From Opitutia bacterium (GTDB lineage: Bacteria; Verrucomicrobiota; Verrucomicrobiia; Opitutales; Opitutaceae), in assembly GCA_947467625.1 (NCBI GenBank), contig CANIJN010000008.1, positions 1 through 51,528 of the forward strand: a stretch of 51,528 nucleotides of DNA. The letters are read 5' to 3'. The notes under the pieces are model-generated. The model was given only the letters and a program-made list of their open reading frames with translations. It had not been told where the DNA came from and did no database searches. The translations under genes were made by a program, and so were the position numbers. The number at the start of each line of letters is the position of its first letter. Within the stretch, counting starts at the first letter, position 1. Positions 13 to 42,324 of the stretch are shown here, piece after piece.

Positions 13-285
13 ATGTTGGTTCTATCTCGTAGGGTTAACGAATGCGTCGTGATCGGTGGTAATATCGAGGTCTTCATCTCTCGGATCGAAGGCGATCTCG
101 TGAAGCTCGGGATCGCCGCCCCGCGCGAAATTTCCATCGTCCGCAAAGAGGTCTTAAACGATCTCGCCCGCAGTAACCGTGTCGCCGGCCTGGCCGCCGC
201 CCCCAAGTTCACGCTACCGAAATTGGCGATGCCGGTCTTGACGCCCAAACCGGCTCCCTCCGCGACCAGCCCCACCAGCAACTAA
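13..285 (+). CDS. csrA: Carbon storage regulator CsrA, with C-terminal extension
   Basis: This is the small RNA-binding post-transcriptional regulator CsrA (RsmA), which binds GGA motifs in mRNA leaders and changes translation or stability. The protein has 90 residues, against about 60 in the family. The conserved opening MLVLSRRVNE, the IGG turn and the AAPREISIVRKEV segment with its RNA-contacting arginine are all present, so residues 1-55 form the complete family domain. The last 30 residues are rich in Ala and Pro (near residues 60-90) and look disordered. Only 12 bases of upstream sequence are in the window, so operon context is unknown. No fliW is seen nearby. The downstream 270-base gap holds inverted repeats and then a convergent gene. 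Identification is secure; the role of the tail is unknown. Confidence 0.95.
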   Translation: MLVLSRRVNECVVIGGNIEVFISRIEGDLVKLGIAAPREISIVRKEVLNDLARSNRVAGLAAAPKFTLPKLAMPVLTPKPAPSATSPTSN

Positions 286-320
286 AGCCCATCGCTTCAC
301 TCAGGTCGCCTTGCGTCAGA

Positions 321-342
321 GGGGAGCCCGCTTGCGAGCGAT
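321..342 (+). repeat. REP-like extragenic palindrome, left half of an inverted pair
   Basis: The sequence GGAGCCCGCTTGCGAGCGAT ends this element. It aligns with the copies at 396-419 (opposite strand) and 40708-40731. All share a GGAGCC start, a GCTTGC core and a GCGAT end. One stem position is mismatched in this copy. With the element at 396-419 it forms a head-to-head pair with about 53 bases between, the arrangement called a REPIN in Pseudomonas. It lies in the gap between convergent csrA and the phosphoesterase gene. Confidence 0.7.
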
Positions 343-395
343 CTGAGGCGGCGGAGCGCGGGAGATTTGACGGCGGCCCTGTTCACTCGCGTCAT

Positions 396-419
396 ATCGC
401 CCGCAAGCGGGCTCCTACC
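396..419 (-). repeat. REP-like extragenic palindrome, right half of an inverted pair
   Basis: Read on the minus strand it contains GTAGGAGCCCGCTTGCGGGC followed by GAT. The stem GCCCGC/GCGGGC is perfect (6 bp) around a TT loop, preceded by the unpaired GGTAGGA head typical of REP sequences. It differs from the copy at 40708-40731 at only two positions, and these two pair with each other in the stem (C-G here, T-A there). That is good evidence for a real repeat family under structural constraint. Confidence 0.8.
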
Positions 420-556: not shown

Positions 557-1477
557 CTACTTTCGGAACACACATTCTCGCGACGGCTCGCGACCGTGGC
601 CCGTGATCACCATTCGGTCCGCCATGATGCGAGCAGTCGCAAACGCCGTGGTCGCCGCCGTCTCGACCATGCCCCGCATCGTGACGCAGGGGACGCCGGC
701 GTGTTCGGCGAAATTTCCCGCATGATTGTGGCCGTTGAGCCAAGCCACCACGTGCGAGTGACGTTCGATCAATTTCAAGACGGCCGGTGAATTCCACACG
801 TTATGCTCGTTCTCCGGAGCGACCGGATGGTGCGCGAGGACGATCACTTTTCGACGATCAGTCCGCGCTGCCGTGCACATACGATCAAACCAGGCGAGTT
901 GCGCCGCACCGATCCCGCCATTCCAAGGCTTGGCCTGCCGAACCTTTTCCGCTTCGAGCCGCTGCAACTCTGCGGCGGCAGGGATCCGCTCAGCCGAACC
1001 GGCCGCGTGCGCATAAATGCTGACGTCGTTGGTATCGAGGATCACGAAACGAAATTCACGGTGGTCGAAAAACCGGTAGCGCTGTTCCATCCCGAGCCTT
1101 CCCGGCACCTTGGCTTTCAACTCATCGAGCACGTCGAAGTCATGGTTGCCGAGCAGATGGTGCCAGCGGTGGCGACTGGCTGCGAGCGGCCGAGTGATTT
1201 CATCGAAGCTCCGCCACTCCCGATCGATCAAGTCTCCAAGGTGGGCGCAAAAATCAAGGTTACGCCCATTGAAATGCTCCACGGCTTCACCGAGTTTTTT
1301 GAGTGAGTTTCGATAGAAACGCGTCCCTTTGTCATCGATGTCGGCGAACTGCGCGTCAGCCACGAGGCCAATCTCGAATCCGGCCTGTACCGCACCCCGC
1401 AGGATCGCCGGAGCCGCGGCCGCGAGCAGGGTGGCTTTCAAAAAACCTCGGCGGTTCCACGAGTGAGTGTTCATCAT
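557..1477 (-). CDS. Tat-exported metallophosphoesterase resembling Mn-dependent ADP-ribose/CDP-alcohol diphosphatase
   Basis: A calcineurin-type metallophosphoesterase of about 306 residues. The metal-binding signature is complete: VADAQFAD near the N-terminus, HLGDLID, LLGNHDF, LAHHP and NGHNHAG. The ADAQFADIDDKG opening is typical of the ADPRibase-Mn branch, which hydrolyses ADP-ribose, CDP-alcohols and related diphosphates. The N-terminus carries NRRGFLKATLLAAAAPAIL, a twin-arginine signal, so the product should act outside the cytoplasm; that is unusual for a branch known from cytosolic nucleotides. The chosen ATG overlaps the stop of the upstream esterase gene (ATGA), which indicates translational coupling; ATG at 1474 is also possible. 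It is the last gene of a four-gene leftward operon. The substrate is inferred and may be a phosphorylated sugar or a nucleotide-like compound. Confidence 0.85.
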   Translation of the reverse strand: MMNTHSWNRRGFLKATLLAAAAPAILRGAVQAGFEIGLVADAQFADIDDKGTRFYRNSLKKLGEAVEHFNGRNLDFCAHLGDLIDREWRSFDEITRPLAASRHRWHHLLGNHDFDVLDELKAKVPGRLGMEQRYRFFDHREFRFVILDTNDVSIYAHAAGSAERIPAAAELQRLEAEKVRQAKPWNGGIGAAQLAWFDRMCTAARTDRRKVIVLAHHPVAPENEHNVWNSPAVLKLIERHSHVVAWLNGHNHAGNFAEHAGVPCVTMRGMVETAATTAFATARIMADRMVITGHGREPSRECVFRK

Positions 1478-2400
1478 TTGGCCTTCGGCAGCCAACCGTT
1501 AAAACGCATCCACGATTCGCAGTGCCGCGGCCACTCGGCCGTGGGCCCGAGCTTGGGGTCCATCCCGGCACCGTGCGGTCCCTGCGCGTAGAGATGCAAC
1601 TCGATGGGTGCTTTCGCGCGGCGCATACCTTGATAGAACAGCAGGCTGTTCTCCACCGGCACCGTCGTATCCGCCGACGAATGCACGAGGAAAGTCGGCG
1701 GAGTGTCCTGCGTCGTCTGTTCGTCGACGGAGAGGTGATGCCGCGCATCGTCGGTCGGTTTTTCTCCGAGCAGCGCGCGCCGCGACGTACCGTGAGCGAA
1801 GGGGTCTTGCATCGTGATCACGGGAAACACCAGAACGAGGAAATCGGGACGTCCGCTGACCCGGTCGAGCGCCGCGCCCGTGCGCCCCTCGGGTGCTTCG
1901 AAGAGCGTGCCAGCGCTCGCGGTGAGATGTCCGCCGGCCGAGCCGCCAAGCATGCCGATGCGCTCCGGCTGCACGCCCCACTCCGCCGCGCGCGACCGCA
2001 CGGTCCGGACGGCACGCAACGCATCGCGCAACGGCGCAGGATGGCCGTATTCGACATTCCGATATTTGAGCACGAAGACCGTGATCCCAAGGGAATTCAG
2101 CCAGCGTGTCATCTCGCCGCCCCTCGCACCGATCGCGACACGAATATAGCCGCCGCCGGCCGCGTAAATAACCGCCGTGCCGTTGGCCGTGCCCGCCGCC
2201 GGCGCGTAAACCGTGAGCGTCGGCCGGTGGATGTTCGTGAACCGACCGTTCCCATCGTCTTGCTCAGGACCGGCGTCGGCTTTGATCGCCGGGACACCCT
2301 CGGGCCAGAGCTCGACGACGGGCGCGGCATCCGCCGCGAAAATCGCCGTCGTCACATGAGTCACGAGCAGCGCGGAAAGAAATGCGAGGCGTGGTGTCAT
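1474..2400 (-). CDS. Secreted alpha/beta-hydrolase, acetyl esterase/acetylxylan esterase-like
   Basis: A 308-residue serine esterase of the BD-FAE/acetyl-xylan-esterase-like group. After a Sec signal peptide (MTPRLAFLSALLVTHVTTAIFAADA) comes VVELWPEGVPAI, a hallmark start of these enzymes. An oxyanion segment YAAGGGYIRV follows, then the nucleophile elbow GGSAGGHLTAS and a late PTFLVHSSAD/HGAG region supplying Asp and His. Family members deacetylate plant polysaccharides or sugars. The ATG at 2400 was chosen because the signal peptide starts there and it sits just downstream of the preceding gene's stop. It lies between the unknown 600-aa gene and the phosphoesterase and overlaps the latter by four bases. 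The context suggests it removes ester groups from the substrate of this locus; which substrate is not shown. Confidence 0.85.
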   Translation of the reverse strand: MTPRLAFLSALLVTHVTTAIFAADAAPVVELWPEGVPAIKADAGPEQDDGNGRFTNIHRPTLTVYAPAAGTANGTAVIYAAGGGYIRVAIGARGGEMTRWLNSLGITVFVLKYRNVEYGHPAPLRDALRAVRTVRSRAAEWGVQPERIGMLGGSAGGHLTASAGTLFEAPEGRTGAALDRVSGRPDFLVLVFPVITMQDPFAHGTSRRALLGEKPTDDARHHLSVDEQTTQDTPPTFLVHSSADTTVPVENSLLFYQGMRRAKAPIELHLYAQGPHGAGMDPKLGPTAEWPRHCESWMRFNGWLPKAK

Positions 2401-40707: not shown

Positions 40708-40731
40708 GGTAGGAGCCTGCTTGCAGGCGAT
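40708..40731 (+). repeat. REP-like palindrome at the start of menF
   Basis: The element contains GTAGGAGCCTGCTTGCAGGC and ends GAT. The stem GCCTGC/GCAGGC is perfect around TT. Against the copy at 396-419, only two bases differ, and they pair with each other. On the minus strand the hairpin ends about 10 bases before the menF ATG, so it occupies the usual ribosome-binding site. Confidence 0.8.
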
Positions 40732-40770
40732 TCCGCCACCACGCGTTTTCCATTGCCGACGCGCGCGCCC

Positions 40771-42324
40771 CTACGCCTTGGCCACCGGTACCGTTGCCTT
40801 CTCCGGCGGTGCCGGCCGCGGAAACAGCACCAACGCACCCGCGACCTTGGCGCCCGTAAGTTTGCCACCCCAATTCAATTCGTCACGCCACACGGCACCC
40901 GGCGTGTAGCCGAGCACCGCGTTGATTTTCTCCGTCGTGGATGGCATTACATGTTGCACGGCGGCGACCACCAGCCGCAAGGCTTCTGCGATGGTGGCCA
41001 GCACCGTGCGCAGGAGCGCCTGATCGTTCGCTTCGGTCGACTTGCCGAGCTTCCAGGGCGCCCGCTTTTCAATGTAGGCATTCGTCTCGGTCAGAAACAC
41101 CATCGCCCGCTCGAGCGCCGTGTGAAACTGATAGCCTTCGCACTGTGGGATAAACTCGTCGCGAGTCTGGGTCCAGAGGTCCCGCAGACTCTTCTCGAGC
41201 GCTTCTTCGACTTCCGCCGCCGGCACGACGCCCGCCGAAAAACGCGTCGTCATGTTCAGCGTGCGATTCACCAGATTCCCCAAATTATTCGCGAGTTCGC
41301 TGTTGTAGCGCACCAAAAACTGCTCCCGCGTGAAGTCGCTGTCTTGCCCAACGTTCATTTCACGAATGAGAAAATACCGGAAGGCGTCGGCCCCAAACTC
41401 GGCCACGAGGTCGAGGGGATTGAGTGCATTACCCGTACTCTTCGACATTTTCGATCCGCGCGTCATCCACCAACCATGGGCGATGATTCCCTTCGGCAGA
41501 GAAATCCCCGCCGCCTTGAGCATGATCGGCCAATAGACCGCATGCGGCGGCACCAGAATATCTTTACCGATCACATGGTGCGCCTCCGCCCAAATCTCGG
41601 GCCGATCGACCACCGCTGAATAGTAATTCAGCAGCGCATCGAACCACACGTAGGTCACGTAGCCGTCGTCGAACGGCAGGGAAATACCCCACTCCAACCG
41701 CTCCCGCGGACGCGAGATGCACAGATCGTTCAGCGGCTCCTTCAAAAATTCCTGCACCTGCTTCTGCCGATATTGTGGGAAAATAAAATGCTCGTTCTTC
41801 GCTAGGAAGTCCACGAGCCACTCCTGATACTGCTTCAGCTTAAAGAAGTAGTTCGACTCCGCTATCTCGGTTACTTCACCGAAGAGCTCCGGCCACGTGC
41901 CGTCCGGCAACCGGTCCTTGTCCTGCAAGAATTGCTCCTGCCGGGCCGAGTAAAACCCCGTGTATTCCGCTTTGTAGATTTCGCCCTTGTCGAAGAGTTG
42001 CTGGAGAACCGCCCGCACGACTTGCTGGTGCCGCTCTTCGGTCGTACGAATGAAATCGTCGTTCGAAATATTCAGCTTCGGTAAGAGCGCCCGAAACTCC
42101 GCGCTCACTTCGTCGCAAAATTGTTGGGGAGGTATCCCCTTCTTCTTGGCACTCGCCTGCACTTTTTGGCCGTGTTCGTCGACCCCAGTCAGGAAATGCA
42201 CCCGGTCCCCCATTTGCCGGCGGAAACGCGCAATGGTGTCCGTCAGGACTTTTTCATAGGCGTGGCCCAAGTGCGGCGAACCATTCACATAGTCGATGGC
42301 GGTCGTGATGTAGAAGGACTTCAT
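40771..42324 (-). CDS. metG: Methionyl-tRNA synthetase, short form without zinc cysteines
   Basis: A 517-residue class I synthetase that charges tRNA-Met. The HIGH motif is GSPHLGHAYEKVLTDT, and the KMSKS motif is RGSKMSKSTGNALNP. The connecting region GFYSARQEQFLQDKD and the following loop lack the CxxC knuckles of the zinc-binding forms, as in Bacillus-type enzymes. The C-terminal tRNA-binding dimerisation domain of longer forms is absent. The start MKSFYITTAIDYVNG is typical. It is followed downstream by the menF/REP region and preceded by a 166-base gap before rdgB. Confidence 0.96.
   Translation of the reverse strand: MKSFYITTAIDYVNGSPHLGHAYEKVLTDTIARFRRQMGDRVHFLTGVDEHGQKVQASAKKKGIPPQQFCDEVSAEFRALLPKLNISNDDFIRTTEERHQQVVRAVLQQLFDKGEIYKAEYTGFYSARQEQFLQDKDRLPDGTWPELFGEVTEIAESNYFFKLKQYQEWLVDFLAKNEHFIFPQYRQKQVQEFLKEPLNDLCISRPRERLEWGISLPFDDGYVTYVWFDALLNYYSAVVDRPEIWAEAHHVIGKDILVPPHAVYWPIMLKAAGISLPKGIIAHGWWMTRGSKMSKSTGNALNPLDLVAEFGADAFRYFLIREMNVGQDSDFTREQFLVRYNSELANNLGNLVNRTLNMTTRFSAGVVPAAEVEEALEKSLRDLWTQTRDEFIPQCEGYQFHTALERAMVFLTETNAYIEKRAPWKLGKSTEANDQALLRTVLATIAEALRLVVAAVQHVMPSTTEKINAVLGYTPGAVWRDELNWGGKLTGAKVAGALVLFPRPAPPEKATVPVAKA

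Follow-up and report, generated by a model that had tools for sequence, protein, structure and literature searches.

Two published descriptions of REP sequences come closest to the element analysed here. REPINs (PMC3116915, 2011) are hairpin-forming inverted REP doublets, marked by over-represented pairs and preferred spacings. The GTAG-1 family of Pseudomonas and other proteobacteria (PMC3733652, 2013) combines the tetranucleotide GTAG with an unpaired dinucleotide, a 6 bp stem, a short loop and a 3-base tail; its members are extragenic, form dimers and are linked to RAYT genes. According to the available text of the latter study, GTAG-1 units joined to unrelated stem-loops surround RAYTs of P. 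putida and P. fluorescens in hundreds of copies, REP-RAYT units may be lost through deletion, and GTAG families 17, 19 and 20 are named for Opitutus terrae. GTAG repeats in a verrucomicrobium are thus already published. A literature search for REPs in Opitutaceae or Opitutus terrae found no papers (subscription journals lie mostly outside its coverage); for Verrucomicrobia and RAYT, PMC3733652 was by title the only paper on REPs among the matches listed. With respect to the history of the enzymes, horizontal transfer is favoured for the RAYT gene class in general (PMC6006769), and RAYT and species trees were largely congruent in the set of the REPIN paper (PMC3116915), as far as the accessible sections of these two papers go.

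The DNA studied here, referred to as the window, is a stretch of 51,528 nucleotides from an Opitutia bacterium of the family Opitutaceae. It is contig C8 of an assembly (G000) of 5.59 Mb in 362 contigs, which is 96.1% complete. Downstream of csrA, exactly where the original prediction had located them, two inverted palindromes of the form GTAGGAGC..GCTTGC..GCGAT lie 53 bases apart. This pair is very probably one member, somewhat decayed, of a REPIN family, that is, of non-autonomous hairpins moved by a RAYT in trans. The features of the window are listed in Table 1.

Table 1. Position and state of the REP elements in the window and of the genes next to the csrA pair.
Feature	Position	Strand	Remarks
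csrA (context)	13..285	+	PF02599
REPIN, two inverted REPs and spacer	319..419	.	convergent intergenic region between csrA and metallophosphoesterase gene
Left REP, decayed	320..342	+	AGGG (320-323) replaces GTAG; one stem mismatch (C.A); core GGAGCCCGCTTGCGAGCGA at 323-341 intact
REPIN spacer, 53 bases	343..395	.	
Right REP, intact	396..418	-	GTAGGAGCCCGCTTGCGGGCGAT; GTAG + GA + GCCCGC + TT + GCGGGC + GAT
Calcineurin-like phosphoesterase gene (context)	557..1495	-	PF00149
Third REP copy	40709..40731	+	directly upstream of likely ATG of chorismate-binding-enzyme gene
Worn partner of third copy	40752..40774	-	3 mismatches to loop-free pattern; overlaps last bases of methionyl-tRNA-synthetase-like ORF

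The 19-base core matched the window three times at up to two mismatches, compared to 0.38 +/- 0.62 matches in shuffled sequences, of which 1 in 100 reached three. The full 23-mer, at up to three mismatches, matched twice (the right REP and the third copy) versus 0.00 in shuffles; the left copy is too worn for this test. The GTAG tetranucleotide is accordingly present in the right copy and in the family consensus and absent from the left copy. Both copies together constitute a 28-base inverted repeat that is 89% complementary and can form one long hairpin. Folded as single-stranded DNA, positions 319-420 gave z = -4.2 for the plus and -4.9 for the minus strand, whereas many shuffles folded at least as well as the single REPs alone (z -0.6 to -1.5). 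On the 3' side of the REPIN, positions 486-550 hold two small inverted repeats, one of them GGGCAGGCTTCAGCCCGCC (494-512). Both are similar to the GTCGGGCTTCAGCCCGAC REP type that accompanies other RAYTs; there is one copy in the window, a count also attained by 7 of 100 shuffles.

The third copy and its worn partner lie between a methionyl-tRNA-synthetase-like gene and a chorismate-binding-enzyme gene and are probably a decayed REPIN as well. The ATG of the latter gene was picked by eye, and the listed ORF starts further upstream.

The element is dispersed over the whole genome far above chance. The pattern GTAGGAGCNNGCTTGCNNGCGAT has 79 copies at up to two mismatches versus none for the reversed control, and the 19-base core has 72 at up to one mismatch versus two. 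The gene context was determined for 81 fetched copies of the pattern with a free loop, and 74 of them were extragenic according to a crude gene prediction (a simple home-made codon-usage script) that called 80% of the same loci coding. Five of the 79 genomic copies, on contigs C18, C163, C174 (twice) and C322, lie outside this test, and the overlapping loci L006, L010, L015 and L028 were excluded from the gene-context, pairing, consensus and arm counts. For the 66 extragenic copies whose two neighbours could both be predicted, the neighbouring genes were in tandem in 42 cases, convergent in 17 and divergent in 7.

Copies were paired when a partner with at most four mismatches was found within 130 bases; matches of this kind occurred seven times in 169,666 bases of shuffled loci. 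This yielded 61 units, 35 of which are head-to-head (GTAG outside), two head-to-tail and none tail-to-tail, with 24 copies remaining alone. The commonest start-to-start distances within units are 53 and 35-36 bases. Over 91 copies, the tetranucleotide consensus is G.93, T.71, A.86, G.98, and the family layout is GTAG-GA-stem-TT-stem-GAT, with the unpaired dinucleotide and the 3-base tail of GTAG-1. The REP forms given for the Opitutaceae element are GTAGGAGCC and GTAGGAGCCTGCTTGCAGGCGAT. The element is therefore a REPIN family of Opitutaceae whose architecture is that published for GTAG-1. On these points the original prediction is supported: it had called the pair REPIN-like, with a layout closely resembling the best-known Pseudomonas REP class, and had named genomic copy number, extragenic location and pairing as checks.

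Among relatives, the 23-mer at up to one mismatch was detected in 15 of 57 genomes including the own one, and the reversed control gave no match throughout. The carriers comprise seven of nine genomes of the same genus, own included, and eight of 28 genomes belonging to other genera of the family; two of these eight have a single copy. None of 20 genomes from other families of the order contained it. G025, a genome of the same family that is 97% complete, has 46 copies; it gave no Pfam match to a Y1 transposase and no match to the RAYT clade described below, and is a candidate for a second orphan REPIN population.

Genes for RAYTs flanked by the element exist in three of these relatives. In G004 and G007, which belong to the same genus, a RAYT of 176 amino acids has inverted element pairs on both sides; in G004 a longer frame of 208 amino acids starts inside the upstream REP. 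Both occupy the identical site, with a GFO_IDH_MocA gene on one side and an ABC-transporter ATPase gene on the other. In G024, from another genus, a RAYT with 55% identity is likewise accompanied by an element pair on each side. Eight same-genus loci contain the oxidoreductase gene of this site. G004 and G007 have 765-773 bases with the RAYT between the neighbours, whereas the site is empty in G000, G002 and G006 (113-127 bases, no element); the ABC gene was not found adjacent in G003 and G005, and the contig ends in G001. A RAYT of this clade was thus found only in G004 and G007 among the seven element-bearing genomes of the genus, and the other five lack a close one.

The three proteins pass the Pfam cut-off for Y1_Tnp (PF01797) narrowly, with 23.8-24.6 bits against 23. 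A RAYT profile matched E. coli TnpA-REP (PDB 4er8) with an E-value of 3e-17 and aligned the catalytic tyrosine, which is Y115 in the E. coli protein according to the available part of PMC8266576. The HUH motif reads PDHLH in all three, and the tyrosine is present in G004 and G024. The RAYT of G007 (L163 1986-2513, G007:C102) is element-flanked and carries a Ser at this position; judged from this substitution, it is possibly inactive while its REPs remain.

As originally stated, the window contains no RAYT gene: searches of the own genome matched only C319 (329 aa), C249 (268 aa) and C5 (a 215 aa ORF). None of these three Y1/RAYT homologues is flanked by the window element, and the own genome yielded no close match to the element-flanked RAYT clade (best E 1.1e-4). 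The proteins on C319 and C249, which match PF01797, were rejected as the cognate RAYT: their flanks lack the element and they are far from the element-flanked clade, their exact place in the tree being unsure due to long branches. The expectation of a RAYT system in the lineage thus held for genomes of the same genus and the same family, where the gene stands between palindromes of the same class; in the own genome no such arrangement was found. Genes flanked by repeats are easily lost from MAGs, so that the absence of a RAYT from this assembly is no proof of its loss.

A second, unrelated REP family, GTAGCGGACGANGTNANGAGGCCG, has 20 copies in the own genome versus none for the control, and none in the window. 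Its repeats flank the C5 homologue (L155 1953-2600 (-), G000:C5:6892-7890), with an array on one side; apparently, the two make up a complete REPtron. A further pair of this family is located at G000:C319:2912-2984, about 0.2 kb from another RAYT homologue. The RAYT-like protein on C249 (L032 1108-1914) has repeated peptide stretches of the SAGVPAGI...GDVGAP type at its ends, which may be a third repeat family overlapping the gene.

Part of the family is embedded in a longer unit. Sequence outside the GTAG ends is shared by 34 of 109 copies (24 of 60 loci), compared to 8 of 2180 random 60-mers from the same loci. These outer arms, about 30-45 bp long, form an imperfect inverted repeat around GCGTTCAAGATKRG...ACCGG, and, with the REPIN enclosed between them, a near-palindromic unit that measures about 140 bp or more. 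Armed units were observed at L016, L025, L065, L013, L038, L027 and L005 and at L301-L304 and L309. L301, L309 and L316 of the own genome have only 139-145 bp in common, with 85-93% identity. L301 and L303, the latter in G003, match with 94% identity over 138 bp and have no further similarity in about 3 kb at E 1e-5; L303 and L304 are orthologous places. Homology between unrelated places ends at about 138-145 bp, spacer and arms included. Since about a third of the copies belong to this longer unit, what moves is not in every case limited to the plain REP doublet.

The armed units might instead be a separate MITE family with another transposase, in which the REPs are passengers. The excess of arms over the control, their inverted-repeat form and the limited length of the homology fit such a family. 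It is nevertheless unlikely, because no arms were detected in 75 of the 109 copies, the window pair among them, while 9 of 12 matches to the arm pattern adjoin a REP. Moreover, no arm-flanked gene was seen among the fetched loci, and inspection of four full-length armed units by eye revealed no consistent target-site duplication (a possible 7-base repeat in one, none in three). The GTAG-1 units of P. putida and P. fluorescens to which unrelated stem-loops are attached (PMC3733652) provide a precedent for the armed unit. A host task, with the palindromes being kept as terminator, mRNA end protection, or gyrase or IHF site and not spread by transposition, would suit the mostly extragenic copies with the neighbour orientations given above and the position of the window copy between convergent genes. 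We consider it highly improbable: units at unrelated places have about 140 bp in common, the element is absent from two genomes of the same genus, and RAYT genes are flanked by elements on both sides. An interpretation of the window REPs as intrinsic terminators was abandoned, as no terminator-like site was found in positions 1-1000; positions 1-1500 gave no Rfam match. Host use after spreading is possible.

The original prediction had left it open whether the REP/RAYT system was parallel to that of Pseudomonas or transferred from it. A scan of named genomes gave at least 487 confirmed RAYT loci, the best 80 of which were analysed. The REP class was present on both sides within 450 bases in 10 of these 80 loci, compared to a single match anywhere in 2 of 80 for the reversed-sequence control. 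The ten are L204-L208 and L219 (Opitutaceae/Opitutales; L219 has a variant) and loci from Sideroxydans, Pseudomonas khazarica, Alcanivorax and Thiocapsa. The five closest loci among the best 80 of 487 are all class-flanked and are titled Opitutaceae, Opitutae or Opitutia. The Pseudomonas form of the REP is GTAGGAGCGAGCTTGCTCGCGAT.

Trees were quick calculations with about 145 columns and were unrooted; the three own-genome RAYTs belong to no tested clade. In the first tree (84 rows), the verrucomicrobial L218, L219, L231 and L280 fell outside the 14-row verrucomicrobial group (support 82) and shared an unresolved fork with the rows from the own genome. Omission of the long or short rows L217, L219, L221, L231 and L280 gave a 76-row tree, for which a verrucomicrobial clade is easier to obtain; it comprised 14 rows with support 97, and a clade of the class-flanked RAYTs was rejected (p 0.0004). 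In a tree of 81 RAYTs (the best 80 of 487 and one from a Pseudomonas plasmid), these five rows were restored and the three own-genome rows left out. All 18 verrucomicrobial RAYTs then grouped together as one clade (support 97.8), and holding the 11 class-flanked RAYTs in a clade of their own was rejected with p-AU 5.7e-5. A clade of the five class-flanked Opitutaceae RAYTs is absent from the free tree and was not rejected (p-AU 0.69, 76-row analysis).

A recent import of the family and its RAYT from Pseudomonas or another proteobacterium could explain why the flanks of the P. khazarica and Thiocapsa RAYTs include GTAGGAGCCCGCTTGCGGGCGA, letter-identical to the intact window copy, why the Pseudomonas plasmid RAYT is flanked by GTGGGAGCGAGCTTGCTCGCGA, and why the element is distributed patchily within Opitutaceae. 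It is very unlikely and was dropped in view of the one verrucomicrobial clade and the rejected class-flanked clade. Furthermore, the G007 RAYT is 53-57% identical to element-flanked members outside the genus and merely 30-38% to the class-flanked proteobacterial RAYTs. In a looser search, the layout GTRG-GA-6 bp stem-GA was common around the scanned RAYT set in several phyla, with differing loops; likeness of the REPs alone is therefore weak evidence for transfer. Around other RAYTs, including ones near the verrucomicrobial members, the stems begin directly after GTAG. When the layouts were sorted by hand (46 GTAG-GA, 16 GTAG-0, 14 unassigned), they required 5 changes on the 76-row tree versus 14 for shuffled labels. 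A parallel REP/RAYT system is thus supported, and recent transfer from Pseudomonas is not. The resemblance to Pseudomonas is best understood as a common recognition format, old or re-evolved, and not as a recent import; with unrooted trees, a transfer long ago, basal to the verrucomicrobial clade, is possible.

Most likely, the family was spread by a RAYT that is kept in relatives and seemingly lost from the own genome. The enzyme acting in trans on the REPIN would be a single-strand transposase of the Y1/HUH type from the RAYT (TnpA-REP) group. By analogy with the published biochemistry of other RAYTs, it would recognise GTAG and the hairpin on single-stranded DNA and cut next to the REP, and the doublet would then move to new, mostly intergenic, places; the RAYTs of G004, G007 and G024 would likewise be expected to cut their REP as single-stranded DNA. 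The sequences directly show that the element is dispersed, paired and biased towards extragenic places, that copies have a replicated unit in common, and that REP-RAYT-REP units occur in same-genus and same-family genomes. Counting against this mode of spread are the cognate RAYT not found in the own genome, the lack of a close RAYT in five of the seven element-bearing genomes of the genus, the Ser of G007, the 24 lone units out of 61, the degraded left REP of the window and the longer unit to which about a third of copies belong. Since the cognate RAYT was not found, the own copies look like the population left by a lost (or unassembled) enzyme.

It is conceivable, and put forward tentatively, that the same REP class, identical 22-base sequences included, has been kept in two phyla by long-split RAYT lineages with only about one residue in three in common. 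In that case, recognition by the RAYT would keep the REP nearly constant, or restore it time and again, on the time scale of phyla, and the REPINs of Opitutaceae would persist after loss of the RAYT. In any case, the best-known Pseudomonas REP class is now placed in Opitutaceae together with element-flanked RAYTs, and likeness of REPs between phyla does not in itself imply transfer. The lineage offers a natural test of RAYT-REP co-evolution, with the same REP, distant enzymes and some genomes without a detectable enzyme.

Compared to the REPINs of PMC3116915, the Opitutaceae family shares the hairpin-forming inverted doublets, the over-representation of pairs and the preferred spacings. It differs in that no cognate RAYT was found in the same genome and in that a subset has outer arms; its 79 copies stand against the hundreds to thousands of REPs reported there, in the accessible text, for E. 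coli and some Pseudomonas. The element-flanked RAYTs resemble E. coli TnpA-REP (4er8) in the HUH and Tyr motifs and as short Y1 proteins flanked by their own REPs; the Opitutaceae clade differs by its length of 176 amino acids with a C-terminal stretch of its own. The closest match is GTAG-1, with which the family has in common GTAG, the unpaired dinucleotide (here GA), the 6 bp stem, the short loop (TT), the 3-base tail (GAT), dimers, extragenic location and the link to RAYTs. The differences are the host phylum, the predominant GCCYGC/GCRGGC stems, the separate verrucomicrobial RAYT clade and the orientation of the dimers: these are head-to-head only in the Opitutaceae family, whereas in family 1, as described in the available part of PMC3733652, tail-to-tail dimers outnumber head-to-head ones.
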